A stretch of DNA of 64,000 bases from Aliiglaciecola sp. CAU 1673 (lineage in GTDB: Bacteria; Pseudomonadota; Gammaproteobacteria; Enterobacterales; Alteromonadaceae). The stretch is taken from contig NZ_JARHUG010000011.1 of the NCBI RefSeq assembly GCF_029223185.1, forward strand, positions 62,001 through 126,000, in the 5' to 3' direction. The notes beneath the pieces are model-generated. The model was given only the letters and a program-made list of their open reading frames with translations, was not told the origin of the DNA and ran no database searches. Below are positions 7,568-60,951 of the stretch, piece by piece (the first letter of the stretch is position 1; the number at the start of each line of letters is the position of its first letter). Both the position numbers and the translations under genes were made by a program.

Positions 7568-8762
7568 TATCAATTTCCCAGATGAGTCTTGCATCAAAGC
7601 TGTTGGCGGCCAACATGGTCAGAATGACCACGATGGAAAAGGAGACGGCAGCTGGCCCAGGGTAAACGGCCATGCTATTTCCCAGTTGGATCAGGCTGAC
7701 TAAGATAGCCACCACGAATACGTCAATCATTGACCAGCGCCCGACGAAATCGGTCACTCTGAATATTTGTGTGCGCCACTTGCGCACAAAGGGGCTTTTG
7801 GTCTGAATGCTGTAGTTCAGCCAGGCCATGGCCACAAGTTTGCCCACGGGCACCAAAACACTGGCAACGAAGATGATAATGGCAATAGGATAGGAGCCTC
7901 CCTGCCATAAACTGATCACACCTCCCAAAATGGTGTTGGCTGTTTCCTGTCCCAGCAACCTTGTATACATGATCGGGAAAAGGTTGGCCGGGACGTAGAG
8001 AATGGTAGAGGCTAACAGCAGAGCCCAGGTGCGCTGAATAGTTTGTTTGGCAGGAGCTCGTTCAGTTCTTAATTGATGCCACTGCAATTCGCCCAAACGG
8101 CGTAGTTGGGCACTTAGCTGATGGTCATCAAGATAGAGAAAAGCGCCAATCAGAGACAAGGTAAACATGACATAGGCATAAAAAGACATGCCCAGTTCGA
8201 TATCCGCCATATCTCCCACTTTGATCAAGCTGATCAGAGCACCCATCATAAAAATCTCGGCCATGCTCCAGGGCAGTAAGGCGAATATCAGTTTCTTAAC
8301 CCAGGCACCGCGCGGGGGGTAGTGTTCCTGGCGCAAGAAAAAACTGAGATAGATCAGGCTGCAGAGGATAACCAAGGGGATAATGTAGATGGCCGCCAGT
8401 TGGATCCCCGCCAACATCACATAGCCTTGCTCTGCCAACAGACTGATGCTCATGGGTATGCTCATGTGCTGGACCTGTCCGCGCACCCCAAACACCATAA
8501 AGTCAAAGGGCAGGGAAGCCACCAGAAAGAAAAGGCCTGATAAGGAAAAAGCCAGAATTTTATCAATGGCCTGCTGATGATAAAGGGTCAGCAGGCTGCC
8601 GCAGCGCGGACACACGGCTTTTTGTTTGTGGCCAAGACGAGGCAGATTGACTACCAAGCCACATTCATGGCAGGAGATTTCCTGAGAGTGACTGGCACTG
8701 ACGCTGCGGGTCAAAGGGGCATGCTGACTCAAAATGAAGTTCTCCAGTCTATCTGGACCCAA
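7554..8762 (-). CDS. pqiA: PqiA, integral membrane partner of PqiB, lacking the second zinc ribbon
   Basis: PqiA is the polytopic inner-membrane subunit of the Pqi lipid transport system. About 402 residues are present. A zinc-ribbon-like CHECG...CPRCG (C31, C34, C51, C54) opens the first PqiA domain, followed by four helices, a linker and four more helices (VPANLFPIMYT and GGVISLWQGGSYP are family signatures). The E. coli-type protein has a second four-Cys ribbon before the second domain; here that linker has no cysteine. The start is uncertain. The longest frame begins with TTG at 8762, and a second TTG at 8732 has a GGAG nine bases upstream. No ATG fits. It is the first gene of the operon. 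Confidence 0.92.
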   Translation of the reverse strand: MGPDRLENFILSQHAPLTRSVSASHSQEISCHECGLVVNLPRLGHKQKAVCPRCGSLLTLYHQQAIDKILAFSLSGLFFLVASLPFDFMVFGVRGQVQHMSIPMSISLLAEQGYVMLAGIQLAAIYIIPLVILCSLIYLSFFLRQEHYPPRGAWVKKLIFALLPWSMAEIFMMGALISLIKVGDMADIELGMSFYAYVMFTLSLIGAFLYLDDHQLSAQLRRLGELQWHQLRTERAPAKQTIQRTWALLLASTILYVPANLFPIMYTRLLGQETANTILGGVISLWQGGSYPIAIIIFVASVLVPVGKLVAMAWLNYSIQTKSPFVRKWRTQIFRVTDFVGRWSMIDVFVVAILVSLIQLGNSMAVYPGPAAVSFSIVVILTMLAANSFDARLIWEIDNDNR

Positions 8763-51100: not shown

Positions 51101-52429
51101 ATGCTTGCGCGTCTGTTCACTCAGTCTTTGTTGTTACTTTGTCTGTCTTTTACCTCCGTGGCTAGCGCCGGGGATATCCTTGAACAGGCCCTGGGGTTGT
51201 TTGATTTGTCTTTGGCCCAATTCAGCCAGGATCCGCAAAGCGGTTTGCTGCACGCCAAGACCCCCTATGCGTCTTACTACTTATCAGAGGATAAACGCTA
51301 TTTATTAAAAGGCTATATGCGGCAACTGGAAGACAGGCCCCGCAACGAGGTGGAAATCACCGACAGGCAAGCTTTTAAGGCCGTCGAGGCAGAGATGATC
51401 ACTGCTGCCGATGGTGGTGCCGATGAGGCCATTTATGTATTTATCGATCTGGACTGCATTCATTGTCGTTATCTGCATTCCCAGCGTGAACAGATAAAAG
51501 CCCTGGGCCTGACCGTAAAATACCTGGCTTACCCCCTGGAGGGACCCGGGAGTCGCGGTTTCGATAAGTTAAAAGCCGCCTGGTGCGCCGATGATCCGCT
51601 GGCGGCAGTGACCACACTGATGGCCGATGGCAACGTGCAAAGCCCCGACTGCAAGCTGGATTTAGCCTCTCATCAGAGATTGGGCGACAATATTGGTATC
51701 GGTGGTTTACCGACCATGGTATTGCCCGACGGGCAGATCTTACGCGGTCGGCGCACCGCATTGGATCTGCAAAAATCTATGCTCAGCAATGCCCTGCTAA
51801 AAGCCCATGATCTTGCTCACCTTATTCCGCTGCGTAATTGGCATCTAAGCTCGCTGACGCCTTCGGTGGTACCGGGTTGGTTGCAAGCCGAGGGCGGCTA
51901 TCATTTTTTCTACCTTAAACAGGATGGTAATGCCCTGTTTATGGGCGAGATCCTGGATCTGCAGCAAGGCAGAGAAAACCTCACGGAAAGAAGTCGCCAA
52001 GCGCTTCGCGCCCAAGGGATAGCGCAGTTTAACGACAGCATGCTGACCTACCAAGCAAAGACCCAGAAGCAACATCTCTATGCCTTTACTGACCTGGACT
52101 GTGAACGTTGTCAGGCGCTACATCAGGCTATCCCAAAACTCAATGCAGCTGGCATAACGGTCAGCCTGTTAGCCTTACCGGCTGAGATCACTAGTTTGTA
52201 CGAGCCGCCCTATGCCAAGGCCTGGTGTCAGGGTTTGCCGGATGTGGTTATTGGTGAGGATACGCAACTGATACCCGCTGCAAGTTGCGACATTGCGGAA
52301 GTGTTGCGCGAACACAGCTATTTTGCTTATCGCATGGCTGTGGGACTGGCACCGGTATTGATGTTGCCTGATGGGCAGCTTTTGCCCTTTTCCAATGAAG
52401 CTGATTTAGCCCTGTTACTGAGCCGCTGA
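51101..52429 (+). CDS. Exported tandem DsbC-like thiol-disulfide protein (two DsbC units in one chain)
   Basis: The 442-residue product has a signal peptide (MLARLFTQSLLLLCLSFTSV, cleavage near ASA-G) and two consecutive DsbC-like units. Unit 1 (about 24-235) has a dimerisation-like domain, then a thioredoxin fold with the CxxC C119-IH-C122 (FIDLDCIHC), a cis-Pro loop GGLPTMVLPDG and a second cysteine pair C162/C184. Unit 2 (about 245-442) repeats the order: C334-ER-C337 (FTDLDCERC), GLAPVLMLPDG, and C376/C396. All eight cysteines correspond to those of two DsbC subunits. DsbC is normally a homodimer, so this may be a covalent pseudodimer. No dsbD is nearby. The two CxxC dipeptides differ from DsbC (GY). 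Confidence 0.82.
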   Translation: MLARLFTQSLLLLCLSFTSVASAGDILEQALGLFDLSLAQFSQDPQSGLLHAKTPYASYYLSEDKRYLLKGYMRQLEDRPRNEVEITDRQAFKAVEAEMITAADGGADEAIYVFIDLDCIHCRYLHSQREQIKALGLTVKYLAYPLEGPGSRGFDKLKAAWCADDPLAAVTTLMADGNVQSPDCKLDLASHQRLGDNIGIGGLPTMVLPDGQILRGRRTALDLQKSMLSNALLKAHDLAHLIPLRNWHLSSLTPSVVPGWLQAEGGYHFFYLKQDGNALFMGEILDLQQGRENLTERSRQALRAQGIAQFNDSMLTYQAKTQKQHLYAFTDLDCERCQALHQAIPKLNAAGITVSLLALPAEITSLYEPPYAKAWCQGLPDVVIGEDTQLIPAASCDIAEVLREHSYFAYRMAVGLAPVLMLPDGQLLPFSNEADLALLLSR

Positions 52430-53422
52430 TACCCGTTCATAACTGAACATATTGCCCTGTATAGCCGCTTTGCTGGTGGCGGCGATTTCACCGATGGGCA
52501 TCAACGCAGGTCCCGTGGGCTCGGCAAGCAGGTAGCGCATGCCTTCAATCTCAATGGTGGCATCCTGCTCACGATAAGGCAGTTGCAGACCAAGTAAGGC
52601 GTGATCCGGCAAGTAGATAAACACCAGCGGCATATTCGGTAGCATGGAGCGCAGCAAGGTCACCGCCAGGGTGGTTTTACTGTCACAGTCCCCCATATTG
52701 TTCAGCAGCACGCCTGAGGGCGGTAAAAAGCCGGCGCCGTTAGAGTCGATGCGGTTTTCCAATGGGCTGTAAGGGATGGTCTGCAGCCACCCCATTAACA
52801 GGTTCACATAGGCCCGCGGCTGGCTGTTGTCCAGCAGCAGTTCATACAGCGCCTGTGCGGCGGGCAGCAGGGGCTCGGCACTTTCGGCGGAATAGCGGGC
52901 GTGATCCGGCTTGATCCCTTCCTGACCTAAATAACTTTGAAAGCGGGCATAGTAGTTCGTTGCCAGGTAATCGTCGAAGGCAGTGTGGCGCAGCGTTCTG
53001 AAGGTCTCTTCCCATTTTTGCTGTAACAACGGCGAGGCGCCTTTGATCTCCACGCGCACATCCTGGCCGACTTTACGCACTTGTACTCTGGCCTGGCGCG
53101 GATCCACCTGCTGAGCCGCCTTTTGCATGGCCACCATAATGTAGCGCTGGGCTATTTGCGGCTGATACGACTTCAGATTGCGAAACTGATTGAAGATCTT
53201 GCTTTTGTCGAGGTTAAAGGCAATTTGGTGTTCGACTTTGTCGGCATCGCGCCAGCGGTAGGAAAGGGCCAGGCTGTTGTCGGTCTGTTCTTTGTTAAAG
53301 CTTAATTGCTGGGCATTGGCATCATTGACAAAGAATGAAAGTGCCAACAAAAAGGGCGCACAACAATGGGCCCAGCCATTGCGGCAGTATCCAGGTATGT
53401 AAGCTGTTAGTGCATTCGCCAA
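52415..53422 (-). CDS. Exported transglutaminase-like cysteine-protein (unknown function)
   Basis: The 335-residue product has a hydrophobic leader (about 16-38, ending DANA-QQ). A mostly helical middle contains ASPLLQQKWEETFRTLRHTAF. The C-terminal domain shows Cys in NNMGDCDSKTTLAV, His in YLPDHALLGLQ and an acidic residue in LLAEPTG, the order of the transglutaminase/papain-like catalytic triad. That points to a protease or protein-modifying fold, but no substrate is known. The start is TTG 53422 with a poor ribosome site and may be wrong by a few codons. Its 3' end overlaps the convergent DsbC-like gene by 15 bp. Confidence 0.65.
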   Translation of the reverse strand: MANALTAYIPGYCRNGWAHCCAPFLLALSFFVNDANAQQLSFNKEQTDNSLALSYRWRDADKVEHQIAFNLDKSKIFNQFRNLKSYQPQIAQRYIMVAMQKAAQQVDPRQARVQVRKVGQDVRVEIKGASPLLQQKWEETFRTLRHTAFDDYLATNYYARFQSYLGQEGIKPDHARYSAESAEPLLPAAQALYELLLDNSQPRAYVNLLMGWLQTIPYSPLENRIDSNGAGFLPPSGVLLNNMGDCDSKTTLAVTLLRSMLPNMPLVFIYLPDHALLGLQLPYREQDATIEIEGMRYLLAEPTGPALMPIGEIAATSKAAIQGNMFSYERVSAAQ

Positions 53423-53508: not shown

Positions 53509-56061
53509 TCAGAAGCTCTGACTGAACTCCACGCCCCACATACGCGGTAAGCCAGGGCTTAAGTTGGCAGATCCGGTGTTTTCCCCCTGACCGCCGTAGC
53601 CGCTTAGCAGATACTCTTCATCCAGCAGGTTGCGGGCAAACAGCGCCACCTGCCAGTCATCGTTACTGCGATAGGCAATACGGGCATTGACCAAGCTGTA
53701 ACCTTCCACTTTGTTATCGCCGGTCAGTCCGGGTACCAGGGCCGGATTGACCGGCAATCTGGCAATGCTGTCGGCATCCCCTGCGGTGGAGCGTTCATCC
53801 ACTGTGGTCACATCCAGATGCAACAGATATTCGCCATTGGCTGCCTCAATAAAATAATCGGCGCCCACAAACCAGCGGTTTTTAGGCACGCCGGCCAGTG
53901 GTTTGCCGGTCAGATCATCTTCTGCGGTTTCACCCACAAACAACGAGTACTTGGTGTATTCACTGTCCAGATAGGCGTAGTTGAAATTCAGCAGGAAGTT
54001 ATCGGTAACCGCCCACTCTGATTCTATTTCCACACCCTTACCGGCGGCGTCAACGTTACGCACGTTATACACCGGAATGTTACCGGTGGAGCCGGTCAGA
54101 CGCAGGATCTGTAAGTTGGTATAGTCATAGTCAAAGGCAGCAATATTGAGTTTCAGCTTGTTATCCAACAGGGTGGATTTCATGCCGATTTCCATATTGT
54201 CCACCTCTTCCTGATCAAAAGGTGGCGCCGCACCCAGGCTGTTAAAGCCGCCCGCCTTAAAGCCACTGGCAAAACTGGCATAGGTCATCAGGTTATTGGT
54301 CCACTGATAATCTAACACCACCCTTGGGGTCAGCTTGGTCCAGGTATTGTCCTGCTCGAAGGGTTGTACATTACCATTGCCGTCAAGGACCGGATTACCT
54401 TGGTCATCACGCAACACATACTCTGTGGCAAAGGCCAGGCCAAAATCCTGTGAGGGGACACCGGGGAAGGGGAAATCTATCTGGTTCTGGTACTGGGATA
54501 AAATGCCAAAGTCTTTTTCATCCCGCGTATAGCGCACGCCAAGAGTCAGATCCAGTTTGTCGGTAACCGGATAGGTCACATCAGCAAAGAGGGCATAGGA
54601 GGTGTAATCACCAAAGTTTTCGGTGACTTCAGTCCAGGGTTTGCCCAGGTTATGACGGGTGATACGCCAGGCTAAATCGTTGACTGGTACGCCGGTAACA
54701 CCAGACAGAAAGGCCAATTCATTGGGGATCAATTGCAATAAGAAGTTGGTTAAACCAGTGCCCACCGGCAGATCCATAATACCAGGAACACCTAGCGATG
54801 GTGCGCCTGTGGGAGGTAGTCCGGCCGCGGCCAGGCTCTCATTGATGGCGAAGCTGTCCAGCGACTCCATCATAAATTCAGCGATGGTCTCCTGATGGAT
54901 ATCTTCATTGGCGTAAGTGGTGCCAACGGTCCAGCGCATGCCGCCATCGGTAACACCGGCTAAACGGAACTCCTGGCTGAAGAATTTTTGGTGTTCCAGG
55001 TTATTGGAGGAAAAGAATCCTCGGGCTTCGCCACTGCCATCATCTTCGGTATGGTTTTCCGTATCGAAACGACGATAAGCTGTAATAGAAGTCAGGGTAC
55101 CAATATCCAACTCTTTATTGATCTCAAGAGAGGTACCAAACAGATGACGTGATTCCATGGCATCCATATCTGTCTCATAGACACCAAAGGGATGTAACCC
55201 GCCGCCACCTTGACGGTAGTAGCTGGGGTTGGCCGAATACACCGGACGGGCATCATTATCCATCTCTTCAAATTCGGCGCGCCAGATCATCTCCAGGCTG
55301 TCGCTTGGCACATAACGCAATGCGGTGCGAATGCCCTGGCTGCTTTCATCGCCCAATTTGACCCGCATTGGCTTGAAATCTTCATCGGTGCGCGGATTGG
55401 GATAACGAATGGCATCCACATAACCGCCACGGTCGCTGAAGTTAACACTGGTTCGCCAGAACAAATCGTCACTGATGGCGGTATTGTAAAGGCCTTCGAA
55501 CTGACGTTTGTTCAGATTGCCCAGTGTGATGCGATAGTTGCCTTCGGTATCGTCGGTGGGCTTTTTATTGATGATTCGCACAGCACCGGCGGCGGTATTG
55601 CGGCCAAACAAGGTGCCTTGAGGTCCCTTGAGCACTTCCACCCGCTCAACATCATTAAAATTCATCAGTGCAGAGCCGCTGCGACCTACATAGACATCAT
55701 CCACATAGATGCCGACGGCCGGGTCGGCACCAATCCCGAAGTCGTTGGTACGAATACCACGGATATCGTATTTGGGCTGGGTTGGCGAGGTGACATTGGT
55801 TTCAAACCCCGGGGTAATATTGCCCAGGTCATTGATGCTTTGCGCGCCAATTTTGCGCAGGCTTTGCTCCGAAAACGCACTGATGGCAATAGGAACCTGC
55901 TGAATATTCTCGACCCGCTTCTGAGCGGTCACTTCCAATACTTCAATGCCTACACTTTCCTTGTCTGGGCTCTCTTGTGCTGATGCGCTAAAACCAAGCA
56001 GGGCGGTGGCGACGCTGGCGGCAACCCATGTCTGGCGAAATGCCTTATGACTGTGCTCCAT
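53509..56061 (-). CDS. TonB-dependent outer-membrane receptor (catabolic type)
   Basis: The 850-residue receptor has a signal peptide (MEHSHKAFRQTWVAASVATA, cleavage at SAQ-E) and a TonB-box-like GIEVLEVTAQK just after. The plug domain (about 55-170) carries IGAQSINDLGNITPG, IRGIRTNDFG and VERVEVLKGPQGTLFGRNTAAGAVRII. The 22-strand barrel ends in the terminal aromatic F of VEFSQSF. The plug type is common in receptors for hydrophobic or aromatic nutrients rather than siderophores, but that is family inference. The start is set by GGGGAA six bases before ATG 56061. It is divergent from the cytochrome operon at 56292. The closest partners are exported redox proteins. Confidence 0.93.
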   Translation of the reverse strand: MEHSHKAFRQTWVAASVATALLGFSASAQESPDKESVGIEVLEVTAQKRVENIQQVPIAISAFSEQSLRKIGAQSINDLGNITPGFETNVTSPTQPKYDIRGIRTNDFGIGADPAVGIYVDDVYVGRSGSALMNFNDVERVEVLKGPQGTLFGRNTAAGAVRIINKKPTDDTEGNYRITLGNLNKRQFEGLYNTAISDDLFWRTSVNFSDRGGYVDAIRYPNPRTDEDFKPMRVKLGDESSQGIRTALRYVPSDSLEMIWRAEFEEMDNDARPVYSANPSYYRQGGGGLHPFGVYETDMDAMESRHLFGTSLEINKELDIGTLTSITAYRRFDTENHTEDDGSGEARGFFSSNNLEHQKFFSQEFRLAGVTDGGMRWTVGTTYANEDIHQETIAEFMMESLDSFAINESLAAAGLPPTGAPSLGVPGIMDLPVGTGLTNFLLQLIPNELAFLSGVTGVPVNDLAWRITRHNLGKPWTEVTENFGDYTSYALFADVTYPVTDKLDLTLGVRYTRDEKDFGILSQYQNQIDFPFPGVPSQDFGLAFATEYVLRDDQGNPVLDGNGNVQPFEQDNTWTKLTPRVVLDYQWTNNLMTYASFASGFKAGGFNSLGAAPPFDQEEVDNMEIGMKSTLLDNKLKLNIAAFDYDYTNLQILRLTGSTGNIPVYNVRNVDAAGKGVEIESEWAVTDNFLLNFNYAYLDSEYTKYSLFVGETAEDDLTGKPLAGVPKNRWFVGADYFIEAANGEYLLHLDVTTVDERSTAGDADSIARLPVNPALVPGLTGDNKVEGYSLVNARIAYRSNDDWQVALFARNLLDEEYLLSGYGGQGENTGSANLSPGLPRMWGVEFSQSF

Positions 56062-56291
56062 TAACTTCCCCAAGTCTTTGTTGTTTATTGTTTTTTTGCA
56101 GGATGCATTAGGACATTGGAAGCCCCGGAGGTCCATCCTGATTTTTTACTGAAAAGAGTGATCCGATGACCAAACCAGTTTCAGCATAATGAATCTCTAA
56201 ATTAGCCGCAATGTAAAAAAAACGTTTTAATTGGTACTATGGTTCCACTAATATGGGCGAAGATCAAGTTTCCTGATAACGAGGTGGGCAG
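56062..56291. promoter_or_regulatory. Divergent control region of the receptor and cytochrome operon, with candidate operator
   Basis: The 230-bp gap must hold both promoters. It contains AAAACGTTTT (56219-56228) and, next to it, the imperfect palindrome TGGTACTATGGTTCCA (56232-56247; six of eight positions match between half-sites). The second lies 45-60 bp before the cytochrome start, a plausible operator for the TetR protein at 60298. No clear -35/-10 pair was found. Confidence 0.4.
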
Positions 56292-56948
56292 GTGCCAAAA
56301 ATCAGCTGTATAAAGATGCAATACATAAAGGGCCGCGCATTGTCAGCAATGTTGTTGATGATAAGTGGATTATCCACCTTTCCCTTTAGCGCCGCTGCCA
56401 TGGAGGCACCCAAGGAATTCGCCACTTGCGCCGCCTGCCATGGCACCAGCGGTGAAGGTAATGTGGCATCGCAGGCACCGGTGCTGGCGGGATTATCAAA
56501 AGACTATCTATTGCGACAAATGGCCCATTTCCTATCCGGGATCCGCGGTGGTGAGCTCGACAGCCTGAGTGCCCAGCAGATGAAACAAGTCAGCCAAAGT
56601 CTGCTCGCCGAAGATAAGACGAGAAACGCCATTGCAGAGTACTTGGCTGCGTTGCCCGCTCCCAAATTGGATTACTCGCAATTGGGAGATATCAAAAAGG
56701 GTAATAGTTATTATCAAAACAATTGCGGCGCCTGCCATGGTGGCAACGCCCAGGGCAACGAAGCTATGAAGGCGCCAAGACTCGCCAATCAGCACCCGGA
56801 CTACCTGCGCCGTCAGTTTATGGCGTTCAGAGAAGGCGTCAGAGGTAGCCACGTTGAGGACAAGCCGGGGCGACAAATGGCGATGATGGCCAAAGTGCTT
56901 CCCCAAGATGTGCTCGACGACGTACTTAGCTTTATTGCGAGTCAGTAG
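56292..56948 (+). CDS. Periplasmic diheme cytochrome c4-like protein
   Basis: The 218-residue product has a signal peptide (hydrophobic core LSAMLLMISGLSTFPFSAAA) and two class I cytochrome domains: heme 1 C46-AA-C49-H50 and heme 2 C145-GA-C148-H149. Between and after them lie helices with likely Met ligands, including HFLSGIRGG and FMAFREGVRGS. This duplicated layout is cytochrome c4, an electron carrier. The start is GTG 56292, seven bases after GAGG; ATG 56316 would still leave a signal peptide. It is 2 nt from the next gene, so it is the probable electron partner of the diheme enzyme. Confidence 0.9.
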   Translation: MPKISCIKMQYIKGRALSAMLLMISGLSTFPFSAAAMEAPKEFATCAACHGTSGEGNVASQAPVLAGLSKDYLLRQMAHFLSGIRGGELDSLSAQQMKQVSQSLLAEDKTRNAIAEYLAALPAPKLDYSQLGDIKKGNSYYQNNCGACHGGNAQGNEAMKAPRLANQHPDYLRRQFMAFREGVRGSHVEDKPGRQMAMMAKVLPQDVLDDVLSFIASQ

Positions 56949-56950
56949 CT

Positions 56951-58129
56951 ATGTATCGCTTGCTGGTTTTACTGTTGTTAATAGCGGCCAATGCGCAAGC
57001 CATTGAGCTAAAGCAAAGCTGCCCTCCTAGTTTTGAGGAGCGGGAGGGGCGCTGTTATCTGGTCAGTCGTTATCAGTTTTTTGATTCCATGCAGGGTAAA
57101 GGCGTGGGCGGTACCCACACTGGCCTGCCGCCGATTCGTGATGGTTTTAGTCCTGCGCAAATCGATTTGGGGCGCTATCTTTTTTTCGATCCGATTTTAT
57201 CCCGCGATCACAACCTGTCTTGTGCCAATTGTCATCAGCCGCAGCGGGGATTTAGCGATGGTATGGGACGCAGTGTTGGTGCTACCGGTGAGCCGGTAAA
57301 ACGCGGCGCCCCCGGTCTTTGGAATGTGGGCTTTTTACGCCGCCTGTTCTGGGATGCCAGGGCGACGTCCCTGGAAGAACAGGCCAGAGGCCCCTTATTT
57401 GATCCCAAAGAAATGGCCAATACCCCCAAGCAGTTACTTGAAGATCTCAGCAATAGTCCTGAGTACGAACAACTTTTTGCCACCGCTTTTCCTGAACAGG
57501 ACAGGGCTATTTCCATCAGCAACGTCACGCTTGCCCTGGCGGCATTTCAAAGCAGTTTGATTTCGCTGAACAGCCGCTATGACCAGTATGCCCTTGGTTA
57601 TCATCAGGCCCTGTCAGAGCAGGAAATAAAGGGCATGAATGTGTATCGCTCTTTTGTGGCCCGCTGTGCGGAATGTCATACGCCGCCGCTTTTTACCAAT
57701 CAGCAGATTGCGGTGATTGGCACCCCGGAGCCCGAAGGGTTGCCGCTTGATATTGGCGCTGAGGCGACTTTCGATGCGCCAAAACTAAAAGGCGGTTTTA
57801 AGGTGCCAAGCCTGCGCAATATTGTTAACAGCGGGCCTTATATGCACTCAGGTCGTTTTGATAACCTCGAAGATGCCGTGCGCTTTTATACACAGGGTCG
57901 CGGCCATGCGGTACCAGAAGGTGTCGATATGCAGATCCATTGGCATATCTGGGAGCCTAATCTCAGCGACCAGGAAATTACTGATATTGTTGCCTTTTTG
58001 GGGGCGCTGACCGACGAAAGCCTGCTGCCCGAGATCCCAACAATATTACCCTCGGGCCTGATGTCTCTGGCATCGACCAATCAATCACTCTCCCCAAATG
58101 CAAACCACAAGGAATCTGAACATGAATAA
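56951..58129 (+). CDS. Diheme cytochrome c peroxidase/MauG-family enzyme
   Basis: The 392-residue product has a signal peptide (MYRLLVLLLLIAANAQA) and two heme sites: C91-AN-C94-H95 (peroxidatic side, followed by GFSDG) and C239-AE-C242-H243. It also has family blocks LGRYLFFDPILS, FWDARATSLEEQARGPL, EM, VPSLRNI and GPYMHSGRF. An N-terminal extension has two cysteines (C24, C35) that could pair. Members reduce H2O2 or, as in MauG, oxidise a protein partner. Which applies here is not decidable from sequence. It lies between the c4 gene and the beta-helix gene and overlaps the latter by 8 bp. Confidence 0.92.
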   Translation: MYRLLVLLLLIAANAQAIELKQSCPPSFEEREGRCYLVSRYQFFDSMQGKGVGGTHTGLPPIRDGFSPAQIDLGRYLFFDPILSRDHNLSCANCHQPQRGFSDGMGRSVGATGEPVKRGAPGLWNVGFLRRLFWDARATSLEEQARGPLFDPKEMANTPKQLLEDLSNSPEYEQLFATAFPEQDRAISISNVTLALAAFQSSLISLNSRYDQYALGYHQALSEQEIKGMNVYRSFVARCAECHTPPLFTNQQIAVIGTPEPEGLPLDIGAEATFDAPKLKGGFKVPSLRNIVNSGPYMHSGRFDNLEDAVRFYTQGRGHAVPEGVDMQIHWHIWEPNLSDQEITDIVAFLGALTDESLLPEIPTILPSGLMSLASTNQSLSPNANHKESEHE

Positions 58130-59627
58130 AGCGGTGATGCTTAGCGTGCTGCTGATAATTGCAGCCTTTTTCGCCGGCCGTTTTTGGTCCGGTCCGTCTT
58201 CGGTCACCATTACCGACAGTCGCGGTGGCGCCAGCTATGCCGGTGGTGTATCGGCCGATGAAGGCAGTAAGACAGAAGGTACCCGTCAGGTGGTGCCGGC
58301 AGGCTCTGGCAAGGTTCTGGAAGTGCGTGAAGGAGAGCGCATTATGGATATGGTTAAGGCCGCAGAGCCAGGCGACACCATCAGGGTGTATCCGGGCACC
58401 TATTCTGAAACCGTATATATCGACAAAGATGGCATTCGCCTGGTGGGCGTGATTGAAGCCGGTAAACGGGCAACCTTGGACGGAGAAGGCCATCTGAACG
58501 ATGCCATTTTGTATTCGGGCAACAATATCGTGGTTGAGAATTTTCTGATCACCAAGTACAAGGGCAACGCTATTATGGGTCAGGCCGGGAATAACTTTGA
58601 GATCCGCAATAACATCATTGTGGATACCGGCGTCTACGGCATTTTTCCGCAACTGGGGAAAAACGGCATCGTTGAGCACAATGTGATTTCCGGTATCGAG
58701 GATGCGGCCATCTATGTGGGCATGAGTGACAACATTCATGTGGCCCATAACCAGGTGTTTGCAAGCGTGGCTGGTATTGAAATTGAAAACAGCCGCCATG
58801 CGATTGTGGAAAACAACTATGTCACTAATAACGCCGGAGGGATCCTGGCCTTTATCACCCCGGGTCTGCCGGTCAAAACCACTTACGATGTGATCATTCG
58901 TAATAACTTTGTGGTGGATAACAACCATGTGAATTTCGGCGCGCCAGGCAGCACTGTAGCCGGGATCCCTTCTGGTACCGGTATGCTGATTATGGCCGCC
59001 GATCAGGTGGTGATTGAGAACAATATTATCTCCGGGAATAAAACCGCCGGGATCCTGATTACCGACCATGATAATGCCCCTAATACCACCATCGATCCGG
59101 AGTCTGATCCTGCGCCTGATAAACTGGCCATCCTCAACAACCTGATGCTTAACAACGGCTATGACACTATCGACGAAGTGAAGGCCCTGATGCTTACTGA
59201 GTTTAAAACCGGCCAGCCGGATATTGTGCGTGTGGGGGTAAGCCGTGATAGCTGCATTATCAACCGCCATCAGTATGTGACGGTGGGCGTTGCCGATTGG
59301 GCAGAGTGTGATTTTACCCACACCAAAGACATTAGCACTTACCTGCTGGCAGAGCCGGTGGCGCCAAGAGAAATCGATCATTCAGAGGTGGGTAAGGTCG
59401 CCTATTTGGGGATCTGTGCCGGTTGCCATACTTATACCGGACGCATGATTGGGCCACCGGTACAGGTGATCCAGGCGCTGTATATGGATAATGCCGAGGG
59501 CTTGGCGGCCTATATTGCCAACCCGGTCAAAAAGCGTGATGACTACCCGGAAATGCCACCTCAGGATTATTTGGATGAAGCCACACGTTTGGCGGTAGCC
59601 AACTACATGTTGTCGGTGAGCAAATAG
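58122..59627 (+). CDS. Right-handed beta-helix protein fused to a C-terminal cytochrome c domain
   Basis: The 501-residue product has an N-terminal membrane anchor or signal (MNKAVMLSVLLIIAAFFAG). A parallel beta-helix (about 65-345) has turns of about 20-24 residues, visible as recurring IRNN, VEHN, VAHN, VENN, IRNN, IENN and ILNN stacks. A short linker follows, then a class I cytochrome domain with C432-AG-C435-H436 and probable axial M478 (YPEMPP). From memory the beta-helix part resembles family TIGR03805, known near c-type cytochromes. ATG 58122 has AAGGA eight bases before. The fold suggests carbohydrate or polymer binding. An antisense frame of 467 codons lies over it and is rejected. 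Confidence 0.88.
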   Translation: MNKAVMLSVLLIIAAFFAGRFWSGPSSVTITDSRGGASYAGGVSADEGSKTEGTRQVVPAGSGKVLEVREGERIMDMVKAAEPGDTIRVYPGTYSETVYIDKDGIRLVGVIEAGKRATLDGEGHLNDAILYSGNNIVVENFLITKYKGNAIMGQAGNNFEIRNNIIVDTGVYGIFPQLGKNGIVEHNVISGIEDAAIYVGMSDNIHVAHNQVFASVAGIEIENSRHAIVENNYVTNNAGGILAFITPGLPVKTTYDVIIRNNFVVDNNHVNFGAPGSTVAGIPSGTGMLIMAADQVVIENNIISGNKTAGILITDHDNAPNTTIDPESDPAPDKLAILNNLMLNNGYDTIDEVKALMLTEFKTGQPDIVRVGVSRDSCIINRHQYVTVGVADWAECDFTHTKDISTYLLAEPVAPREIDHSEVGKVAYLGICAGCHTYTGRMIGPPVQVIQALYMDNAEGLAAYIANPVKKRDDYPEMPPQDYLDEATRLAVANYMLSVSK

Positions 59628-59635
59628 GGGATAAC

Positions 59636-59659
59636 CACAGAGTCACAGAGGGCACAGAG
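59636..59659. repeat. Triple CACAGAG direct repeat after the cytochrome operon
   Basis: CACAGAG occurs at 59636-59642, 59644-59650 and 59653-59659. From memory this type of motif is seen after genes in many bacterial genomes. Its meaning here is unknown. Confidence 0.6.
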
Positions 59660-59739
59660 ATGGAAGGGGATATCTAATGCTCCTCTGTCATCCCCGGATT
59701 GAAGGGCACTGTGTCTCCGAAGGTGCTGGTTGAATTGTC

Positions 59740-59764
59740 ATCCCCGAATGTAGTTATCGGGGAT
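59740..59764. repeat. REP-like palindrome
   Basis: ATCCCCGA (59740-59747) and TCGGGGAT (59757-59764) are a perfect 8-bp inverted repeat with a 9-nt loop, preceded by TGTC. A second half-copy, TGTCATCCCCGGA, lies just upstream around 59687. The form resembles repetitive intergenic palindromes of alteromonads and vibrios. It could also terminate both convergent units, but it has no T-run. Confidence 0.55.
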
Positions 59765-59823
59765 CTGTATCAGCTCTCTCCAAAGATGCCCTTTAACAAC
59801 TTAAGGGCATGACTCTACCCTAT

Positions 59824-60294
59824 CTAATTCGCCGCAGGGACCACAGCCTGATAGGCCTCGGTGCCGTATAGCGGTACTGTCGACAGGCTGTGTTTAAAGC
59901 TGCCGGAGGTCTCCTTGGTGGAGTAAGACACATACATCAGGGTTTGATGCTTGGCATCGAAAATACGCCGTATTTTCATGCTTTTGAAAAAGATACTTTT
60001 GGACTTGCTGAACAGCACTTCGCCGGAATCACTCTTATCTATTTGAGCAATCATCTGGGCGCTGATGGGGCCGGTTTGACGGCAAGCGATGGCGCTATCC
60101 GATGGGTCGGAAAAACTTAAATCAGCCTCAATACTGGAGACATGGCAGGTGACACCGGTGACGATGGGGTCATTAAAGGCATCCAGCTTAATGTCTTTGG
60201 TGGTAAACAAGCCAAGCGAGACGTCACCCACTTCGTTGCCGCCACAGGCAGATAACAGCGCGCACAGGGTGATGATGGCAATTGGTTTTTTCAT
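59824..60294 (-). CDS. creA: CreA-family lipoprotein
   Basis: The 156-residue product has a lipobox LLSAC (C17) and the CreA outline: VGDVSLGLFTTKDIKLDAFNDP, VTCHVSS, SDSAIACRQTGPIS and FKSMKIRRIFDAKHQTLMYVSYS. The two cysteines in VTCHV and IACRQ are conserved in CreA and probably pair. E. coli CreA has no lipobox to my memory, so lipidation here would be a difference. Its function is not known. It follows the TetR gene by 3 nt, so the two form one unit. Confidence 0.85.
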   Translation of the reverse strand: MKKPIAIITLCALLSACGGNEVGDVSLGLFTTKDIKLDAFNDPIVTGVTCHVSSIEADLSFSDPSDSAIACRQTGPISAQMIAQIDKSDSGEVLFSKSKSIFFKSMKIRRIFDAKHQTLMYVSYSTKETSGSFKHSLSTVPLYGTEAYQAVVPAAN

Positions 60295-60297
60295 AAT

Positions 60298-60951
60298 TTA
60301 AAGCTCGAATAAGGTGCTGCTCAACAGCAGTGCGATGGTGGTATCAAGCTCATCCTCGGTCAGCGCGCTGCTTAGCATCTGATATTCCAGTTGCAGCAGG
60401 GTACCTACCAGCACATTGGCCCTGGCACTGGCATGGGGATGAGCAAGACTCTCGAAGAAGTGACTGACCGCCCGTTGTGTCATTTGCTGTGAGGTGGTGA
60501 GTAGCTTACCCAGTTTGGGATCGCGCAATGCTTCCTGTCGGAATGACCATTCCAGTAACCTGTTGTCGCGGTCGGCGACCTGACTTTTGATATGGTTGAC
60601 CAGGAAGTGTTGCAGATTTTGCTTTAGTTTCACCCTATCCTGGTGCCGTTGGTACTCTTCCAAGGCTATCCAGGCGCTACGTTCCAAAAGCTGGATCTGG
60701 GCCAGATTTGATTCGGTAAAATAGACAAAGGCGTCATGAATCAAGCTATCGATGGATTCAAAGTAGTAGGTAGTAGCAGACAATGGCACCTCTGCCTCTT
60801 TAGCCACTGACCGATGTCGTACCTCGCGAATACCATCCCTGACCATTACCCGCAGGGCTGCCTGTAAAATGTTATTGCGTCTCTCCAGACTGTCACGACG
60901 TTTAGTGATACGGCCCTCGTAGGGGAGGGTGAGATTATCCAATATCTGCAA
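60298..60951 (-). CDS. TetR-family transcriptional regulator
   Basis: The 217-residue protein has a TetR N-terminal helix-turn-helix (about 26-75, RRNNILQAALRVMVRDGIREVRHRSVAKEAEVPLSATTYYF, split) and an all-helical ligand-binding C-terminal part. The ligand is unknown. The start is TTG 60951, supported by a strong AGGAG eight bases upstream. A palindrome-like TGGTTTTGAAACCA at 60980-60993, inside the 3' end of cysG, lies 29 bp upstream and could be an autoregulatory site. Proximity suggests it controls creA and perhaps the receptor/cytochrome island, but this is inference. Confidence 0.88.
   Translation of the reverse strand: MQILDNLTLPYEGRITKRRDSLERRNNILQAALRVMVRDGIREVRHRSVAKEAEVPLSATTYYFESIDSLIHDAFVYFTESNLAQIQLLERSAWIALEEYQRHQDRVKLKQNLQHFLVNHIKSQVADRDNRLLEWSFRQEALRDPKLGKLLTTSQQMTQRAVSHFFESLAHPHASARANVLVGTLLQLEYQMLSSALTEDELDTTIALLLSSTLFEL

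Follow-up and report, generated by a model that had tools for sequence, protein, structure and literature searches.

The 64,000-nucleotide stretch of the genome of Aliiglaciecola sp. CAU 1673 analysed here (contig NZ_JARHUG010000011.1, positions 62,001 to 126,000), referred to below as the window, carries three tightly spaced plus-strand genes for exported proteins: a diheme cytochrome c4-like protein, a diheme enzyme of the MauG/MbnH type and a beta-helix protein that ends in a cytochrome domain of its own. The arrangement of this trio is conserved across genomes far beyond chance. We tentatively propose, at a probability of about 0.4, that the trio and the TonB-dependent receptor encoded divergently beside it form an inducible redox module of the cell envelope, which would import and oxidise an organic compound, with the beta-helix protein as the substrate-facing component. 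Literature searches turned up no description of the trio, which seems so far to carry only database labels.

The first gene of the trio (56292..56948) encodes the c4-like protein, with two Cytochrom_C stretches, CXXCH motifs at 56427-56441 and 56724-56738, and cytochrome c4 1etp as its best PDB match. A gap of 2 nt separates it from the gene for the diheme enzyme (56951..58129; CCP_MauG, PF03150), which has CXXCH motifs at 57221-57235 and 57665-57679. The longest open reading frame (ORF) of the third gene, for a beta-helix protein of family TIGR03805, spans 58098-59627, the ORF caller taking the longest start. If the ATG at 58122 is the start (58122..59627), the gene overlaps that of the diheme enzyme by 8 nt, as is likewise the case in the Bowmanella loci L026, L027 and L029, and its product combines an N-terminal hydrophobic segment with a C-terminal c551-like domain bearing a single CXXCH (59415-59429). 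An earlier note on this DNA had described the same layout, with the receptor divergent from the trio and CreA and TetR genes beyond it, and ORFs, domains and spacing all bear it out.

A contig scan with one genome per species gave 118 relatives of the beta-helix protein, and the best 80 of the 118 loci were kept; they include near-duplicates, and the counts below refer to loci, not to independent events. The closest named relatives among those found belong to Bowmanella (81-82% identity). Where enough upstream DNA was available, a diheme gene lay immediately 5' of the heme-type beta-helix gene at 75 of 76 loci, and a c4 gene preceded the diheme gene at 69 of 74. The earlier note had suggested searching for its gene set across genomes, and for the three exported genes that search answers clearly in favour of co-conservation. 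The sole exception to the diheme–beta-helix pairing is an extra copy in Microbulbifer (L086), which has a complete c4–diheme–beta-helix set elsewhere in its genome. The c4 gene is absent, with the beta-helix gene kept, at five of the 74 loci, namely L069, L073 and three metagenome-assembled genomes (MAGs) labelled as Bacteroidota (L097, L098 and L100), and it is absent also in L191, a more distant genome of the same phylum. Because c4 is missing in these six cases, the diheme enzyme and the beta-helix protein constitute the core of the module.

The heme-bearing system was seen in Gammaproteobacteria, in four Bacteroidota-labelled MAGs (the three above and L102) and in the alphaproteobacterium Ruegeria pomeroyi DSS-3. 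In the latter, a c-type cytochrome, a peroxidase, an added tetratricopeptide-repeat gene and the beta-helix gene (SPO_RS20595-20610) stand behind a divergent AraC gene, with identities to the window proteins of 42% for the cytochrome, 51% for the diheme enzyme and 44% for the beta-helix protein. As a separate observation, the bhcBCD genes, which serve the beta-hydroxyaspartate cycle, are located some 4 kb away from the R. pomeroyi trio (L243 1-10305).

The diheme enzyme falls into the superfamily of MauG and the cytochrome c peroxidases (CCPs). Its AlphaFold2 model (predicted local distance difference test 80, predicted template-modelling score 0.85) gave MbnH (6e1c) as the top Foldseek match, with CCPs close behind at about 27-33% identity in structural alignments. 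In alignments, Tyr313 (codon 57887-57889) falls where MbnH 6e1c has Tyr and the CCPs have Met, a column that we take to provide the sixth ligand of the C-terminal heme; in CCPs, the aligned Met is an axial ligand of this heme. Judged from the alignment, the Met on the C-terminal heme that marks a canonical CCP would be replaced by Tyr here, and at least 95% of the 80 diheme sequences share this Tyr and its FY motif. The NCBIfam scores reach 231.3 bits for TIGR04039 (MbnH; cut-off 362.85) and 194.6 bits for TIGR03791 (MauG; cut-off 443.85), and the MbnP family (TIGR04052) had no match among the eight window proteins scanned. Overall, the protein looks like an enzyme of the MauG/MbnH type, yet one outside the cut-offs of both families. 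With MauG and canonical bacterial CCPs it shares the diheme superfamily and fold as well as the conserved Trp134, presumably situated between the two hemes; it differs from them in scoring below the MauG cut-off, in having Tyr for the CCP Met, in an N-terminal extension with two Cys and in an HWHI motif. A lipobox was found by a simple pattern in seven of the 80 diheme enzymes.

With 171.2 bits, the window beta-helix protein scores above the TIGR03805 cut-off of 141.5, and the heme-bearing subgroup as a whole (about 172-195 bits) is set apart from a second type, introduced below as pair-type, which reaches about 290-443 bits. A single CXXCH near the C-terminus is present in 81 of 81 heme-type sequences and a P-M-P motif in 74 of them; in the window protein, this region carries a Cytochrom_C domain and aligns weakly with c551/c552 structures (best E 0.0033). 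Since CXXCH and P-M-P align with c551/c552, the heme is likely of the electron-transfer type. A strong hydrophobic stretch occurs within the first 60 residues in 78 of the 81 sequences, and the simple pattern found a lipobox in three; such an N-terminal segment without a lipobox makes inner-membrane anchoring of most heme-type proteins likely, while the R. pomeroyi protein, inspected by eye, apparently has a cleavable signal instead.

When 81 heme-type beta-helix sequences were aligned with 29 of the pair type (numbered from the start at 58122), Y172, D194, Y198, E220, E222 and N223 proved invariant across all 110, and counting the rungs by eye would place the conserved residues on one outward face. 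Two further positions depend on the type: residue 152 is M in 81/81 heme-type and K in 28/29 pair-type proteins, and residue 201 is M in 81/81 and Q in 29/29, respectively. Both Met residues are retained in R. pomeroyi. No Trp is strictly conserved in the beta-helix, and the Pfam and NCBIfam scans also revealed similarity to NosD.

The receptor gene occupies 53509..56136 on the minus strand as the longest ORF (875 aa), with Plug (PF07715, 63 bits) and barrel (PF00593, 138.8 bits) domains above the Pfam cut-offs. Its true start likely lies near 56058 (residue 27), as alignments with the six closest receptors begin only at residues 13-31. A receptor is found nearby (no further than 7.5 kb on the upstream or 4.5 kb on the downstream side) at 35 of the 56 heme-type loci with enough flank. 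Some of these receptors are divergent, some are co-directional and separated from the module by an AraC gene, and some follow it after 19-53 nt. Given that the 4.26-Mb genome encodes 38 receptors above cut-off, the chance of such proximity is estimated at about 0.14. In a receptor tree, 39 of the 41 receptors near heme-type modules (that of the window counted), 7/7 near pair-type modules and nine unlinked orthologues form one group, so that one clade holds 46 of the 48 receptors near either module type and none of 29 other receptors from the window genome. The tree was built by a quick method, has long branches and draws its background from the window genome alone, 29 of whose 37 other receptors were included. 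The BLAST search behind it was biased, as it would recover only 10 of these 29, and a profile from all 86 receptors revealed 12 extra receptor-like ORFs across the 80 loci. Two of these, in L034 and L076 (the latter a fragment), stand immediately beyond the trio and are absent from the tree, and others lie further away. We do not regard the clustering as a mere search artefact, although the search bias and the single-genome background limit the result.

Linkage is strictest among close relatives: receptors at least 63% identical to that of the window stand beside a beta-helix/cytochrome module in seven of seven genomes, this one counted. Taking orthologues at E<=1e-120, we found the receptor in 16 genomes, of which seven have it beside the module and four encode a TIGR03805 protein elsewhere; in the other five, TIGR03805 found nothing at E<=0.001. 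The earlier note held that a receptor occurring mostly without the cytochrome genes would speak against its proposal; the outcome is divided, with seven of the 16 orthologues beside a module and nine apart from it. Six of the unlinked orthologues (L194 and L197-L201) adjoin a gene cluster with a conserved membrane protein, which in the one case scanned (L194) proved to be an FA_hydroxylase (PF04116), a faint indication that the ligand may be lipid-like. Those of L195 and L196 are preceded by cbb3-assembly-like genes, one of which encodes a heavy-metal ATPase, and this equally faint indication points the opposite way.

Between the receptor and c4 genes lies a palindrome, TGGTACTATGGTTCCA (56232..56247, no strand), a probable operator of the divergent promoters; a simple scan found no sigma-70 promoter near it. 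It is kept in five Bowmanella genomes (this genome counted), and two pair-type relatives carry the altered palindromes TGGTACGATAGTGCCA and TGGTACCATCGTTCTA. The 4.26-Mb genome contains one exact copy, the one in the receptor–c4 region, and two further sites with one mismatch, against one such site for a reversed-pattern control. Allowing at most one mismatch to TGGNACNNNNGTNCCA, we found such a site upstream of 10 of the 69 modules whose first gene is c4, of none of the seven other heme-type modules and of 5 of the 27 pair-type modules; control windows contained it in 16 of 1737 cases. The candidate reader is a TetR-family regulator encoded beyond the trio (60298..60951, minus strand), whose TetR_N score of 23.1 bits is just below the cut-off of 24. 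The palindrome accompanies five of the six heme-type loci with a window-like TetR gene in the fetched stretch (two of the six being from Bowmanella, or three with L028), and the sixth, L028, has an exact copy at 8161 that was hidden by an over-long ORF start. It was found at 0 of 28 heme-type loci with an AraC-type gene and at 5 of 42 other heme-type loci, one of them a Bowmanella contig that ends before the TetR gene. Because the only exact copy lies between receptor and c4, the palindrome suggests that receptor and trio are tied together in this genome, where they are apparently co-regulated, with TetR as the candidate reader. Of the earlier claim that all these genes make up one envelope system, the part concerning this genome stands, given the co-conserved trio, the single exact palindrome and the seven linked close receptors; a fixed four-gene set they are not.

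The pair-type relatives show what can be exchanged in such a module. Two genomes, G034 and G026, share the neighbourhood (cysG or PhoH, TetR, a 63%-identity receptor and an exported protein without family) but have a different module in it, divergent from the receptor and made of a heme-less beta-helix protein and an SO2930-family diheme protein; the family names were confirmed for G034. This TIGR03805+TIGR03806 pair resembles the window system in beta-helix family and core and in receptor clade, and, in these two relatives, in chromosomal site and palindrome type; it differs in lacking the beta-helix heme, in having SO2930 instead of c4 and the MauG-type enzyme, and in K and Q at positions 152 and 201. 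In L109, the two domains are fused in one protein, both over the NCBIfam cut-off, and L110 is apparently fused too (two CXXCH and a beta-helix match). One fused protein, G405, has a TIGR03805 score of 184 bits, outside the range given above for the pair type. TIGR03805 was detected at E<=1e-20 in 45 of 398 genomes of a phylum sample, 37 of which score at least 290 bits, in the pair-type range. For TIGR03806, neither the scanned proteins of the window nor, at E<=0.001, the whole genome gave a match. The SO2930 labels of the pair loci come from a phmmer search at 1e-10 with one query; the simple lipobox pattern is present in 13 of 27 pair-type beta-helix proteins and 17 of 28 SO2930 proteins. 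Literature searches turned up no function for this pair either.

Three pair-type loci have peculiarities of their own. The SO2930-family protein of L106 (2615-3751) has a weak N-terminal cytochrome P460 match (E 5.5e-4, under cut-off). L185 (6818-12922) shows a tandem duplication: TIGR03805 matches twice within a single beta-helix protein of 1075 aa, and the SO2930 family is represented by two genes. On a Novosphingobium plasmid (L244 4003-7795), two receptor gene pieces with an IS5-family transposase gene between them lie by a beta-helix/SO2930 pair.

Functional hints come from the genes next door. The immediate neighbours collected at 27 pair-type loci and at 65 of the 80 heme-type loci came to 171; of these we scanned 137, leaving out 34, chiefly receptors and repeats from close relatives. 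The commonest family was the AraC-type helix-turn-helix (18 of 137). Aldehyde dehydrogenase genes share the same apparent unit at 11 of 72 loci in three lineages (family checked for L047, L065 and L088), short-chain dehydrogenase/reductase (SDR) genes were found at three loci (checked for L066 and L102), and the Novosphingobium plasmid module is surrounded by alcohol and aldehyde dehydrogenase genes, with an ArsR-type gene and an arsenite exporter also near. Isocitrate lyase, hydroxyproline and other single-lineage neighbours were, by eye, taken as background. Such substrate-type regulators, together with the dehydrogenase and SDR neighbours, point to the oxidation of an organic compound.

On these grounds we would sketch the import-and-oxidise module as follows. 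TetR repressors usually respond to small organic molecules, and the window TetR, released by such a ligand, would control the divergent receptor gene and the c4–diheme–beta-helix operon through the site at 56232-56247. The compound that the receptor would carry into the periplasm would be organic and probably rather hydrophobic, and the invariant Tyr/Asp/Glu face of the beta-helix may bind or convert it there. Electrons would leave through the c551-like domain and c4 to the respiratory chain. The MauG/MbnH-type enzyme would most likely act on the beta-helix protein itself, activating or oxidising it, a role for which other diheme enzymes with a dedicated partner offer the precedent, and in related modules the SO2930-family protein would take over the redox side. 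Partner exchange at one site, the common palindrome and the two partner-dependent residues open the function to direct tests, and a positive outcome would mean either a new partner of a MauG-type enzyme or a new kind of periplasmic oxidase.

Several observations weigh against this proposal. A Tyr ligand alone is no proof of protein modification, as the peroxidase BthA seems to be of the Tyr type too, and the beta-helix lacks the strictly conserved Trp of the Trp-modifying precedents. Pair-type modules share the beta-helix core, and no MauG-type gene was seen in the 27 pair-type stretches examined, so maturation by a MauG-type enzyme is not general. The Woeseiaceae aldehyde dehydrogenase gene is followed by one for a HAD-type hydrolase and may belong elsewhere, and that of Steroidobacteraceae follows the receptor. 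Two of the four pair loci with a nearby TetR gene (L108 and L170) have no upstream palindrome, and a TetR homologue with 41% identity (G222) has no module nearby, for which reason we do not consider TetR an exclusive marker of the module. No receptor was found near 21 of the 56 heme-type loci with enough flank, and none is annotated within the 19 kb around the R. pomeroyi trio. Finally, some copper-related neighbours, taken up below, do not fit.

A bolder variant, which we consider rather unlikely, makes the beta-helix protein a new class of periplasmic oxidoreductase that would use no flavin, pyrroloquinoline quinone or molybdenum. The Tyr/Asp/Glu face would itself oxidise the substrate imported by the receptor clade, possibly through a protein radical or a cofactor set by the MauG-type enzyme, and would pass electrons straight to c-type hemes supplied by two interchangeable partners, either the MauG-type enzyme with c4 and the protein's own heme, or the SO2930 diheme protein.

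The nearest known systems lead to a different possibility. MbnP and MbnH combine a MauG-type diheme enzyme with a dedicated partner and, as far as these sources go, are often encoded near a TonB-dependent receptor (PMC3621798, PMC3912023). The window system resembles MbnT/MbnP/MbnH of methanobactin operons, MopE/SACCP and CorA/CorB in pairing a diheme enzyme with a dedicated partner close to a receptor, and MbnH is its top structural match. It differs from MbnT/MbnP/MbnH in that its partner is a beta-helix protein with its own cytochrome domain, in the added c4 and in a TIGR04039 score below cut-off; moreover, MbnP has a conserved Trp that is converted to kynurenine, whereas the window beta-helix has no such Trp. 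The trio could in principle serve copper or other metal acquisition, with a metallophore imported, the beta-helix protein modified by the diheme enzyme, and the metal held by Met152, Met201, Met291 and His226. Besides the receptor proximity of MbnP/MbnH, the oxidised-Trp copper site described for the MopE and CorA partners, the NosD similarity and the confinement of invariant Met152 and Met201 to the heme type would agree with such a role. So would a PCu(A)C copper-chaperone gene (L108 9636-10118) two genes from a beta-helix/SO2930 pair, with a DUF2333 gene between, and the heavy-metal ATPase (cbb3-assembly type by eye) four genes from the unlinked receptor in L195, a cluster repeated in L196. 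We nevertheless find the copper explanation doubtful: the beta-helix offers no conserved Trp, the pair-type replaces both Met residues, the regulators on the module side are mostly of the AraC or TetR type, dehydrogenases are among the neighbours, and no copper family is among the 25 commonest of the 104 families in the neighbour scan, the other 79 being unlisted.

Less probable still is a plain periplasmic peroxidase, in which c4 would feed electrons to the diheme enzyme for the removal of H2O2 and the beta-helix protein would be an accessory donor. The CCP_MauG family, the identity to CCPs, the adjoining c4 gene and the Tyr-type BthA, which the Foldseek match titles file under diheme peroxidases and of which they also name a Y463M variant, are all compatible with this. 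However, the axial position has Tyr instead of Met, the pairing with the beta-helix gene is near-strict and outlasts the loss of c4 at five of 74 loci, and neither the substrate-type regulators nor the receptor linkage would be expected.

It is similarly improbable that the trio is self-contained and the receptor a frequent but independent neighbour. The 21 loci without a nearby receptor, the nine of 16 orthologues away from a beta-helix gene and R. pomeroyi lead us to reject the receptor as an obligatory member, and the constant co-occurrence envisaged in the earlier note does not hold, as the trio is found without it too. Against full independence stand the palindrome between the two, the single receptor clade, the several arrangements that keep both together and the linkage of all seven close orthologues. 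Capture of an imported polysaccharide on the beta-helix, a polymer version of the substrate capture suggested in the earlier note, is very unlikely and gained no support: right-handed beta-helices are common in polysaccharide-acting proteins, and a homologue on a Hymenobacter plasmid, which covers 49% of the query at 33% identity and for which no adjoining cytochrome gene is listed, lies amid glycoside hydrolases, but most heme-type proteins have the N-terminal membrane segment without a lipobox, and no glycoside-hydrolase or lyase family is among the 25 commonest of the 104, with 79 unlisted.

An operon of mtoX, SCO1/senC and mauG provides a looser parallel, in that its mauG-like gene has been proposed to mature methanethiol oxidase (PMC5739008). 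As far as that account goes, it resembles the import-and-oxidise module in encoding a catabolic enzyme with a mauG-like maturation candidate, and differs in the enzyme and in a copper chaperone in place of c4; the excerpt of the source makes no mention of a receptor.

As to the remaining neighbours, the CreA-family lipoprotein gene beyond the trio (59824..60294, minus strand; PF05981) is probably a bystander. Among the 80 loci, CreA occurs only in Bowmanella (L026-L028), and we rejected it as a module member on this ground; of the two genes that the earlier note had placed beyond the trio, both are present and TetR is the better candidate for membership. On the other side, downstream of the receptor and co-directional with it, a gene for an exported protein (52415..53422, minus strand) is a possible member; the protein matches no Pfam or NCBIfam family and looks transglutaminase-like by eye. 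Its homologue adjoins the receptor in L026, L027, L029, L106 and L107 and lies near it in L028, an adjacency that may be shared synteny only; in Bowmanella and in pair-type relatives the gene runs in the receptor's direction. Next to it, at 51101-52429, is a DsbC-like chain of 442 aa that contains two thioredoxin-type stretches and whose two CXXC motifs differ from each other, apparently a tandem DsbC.

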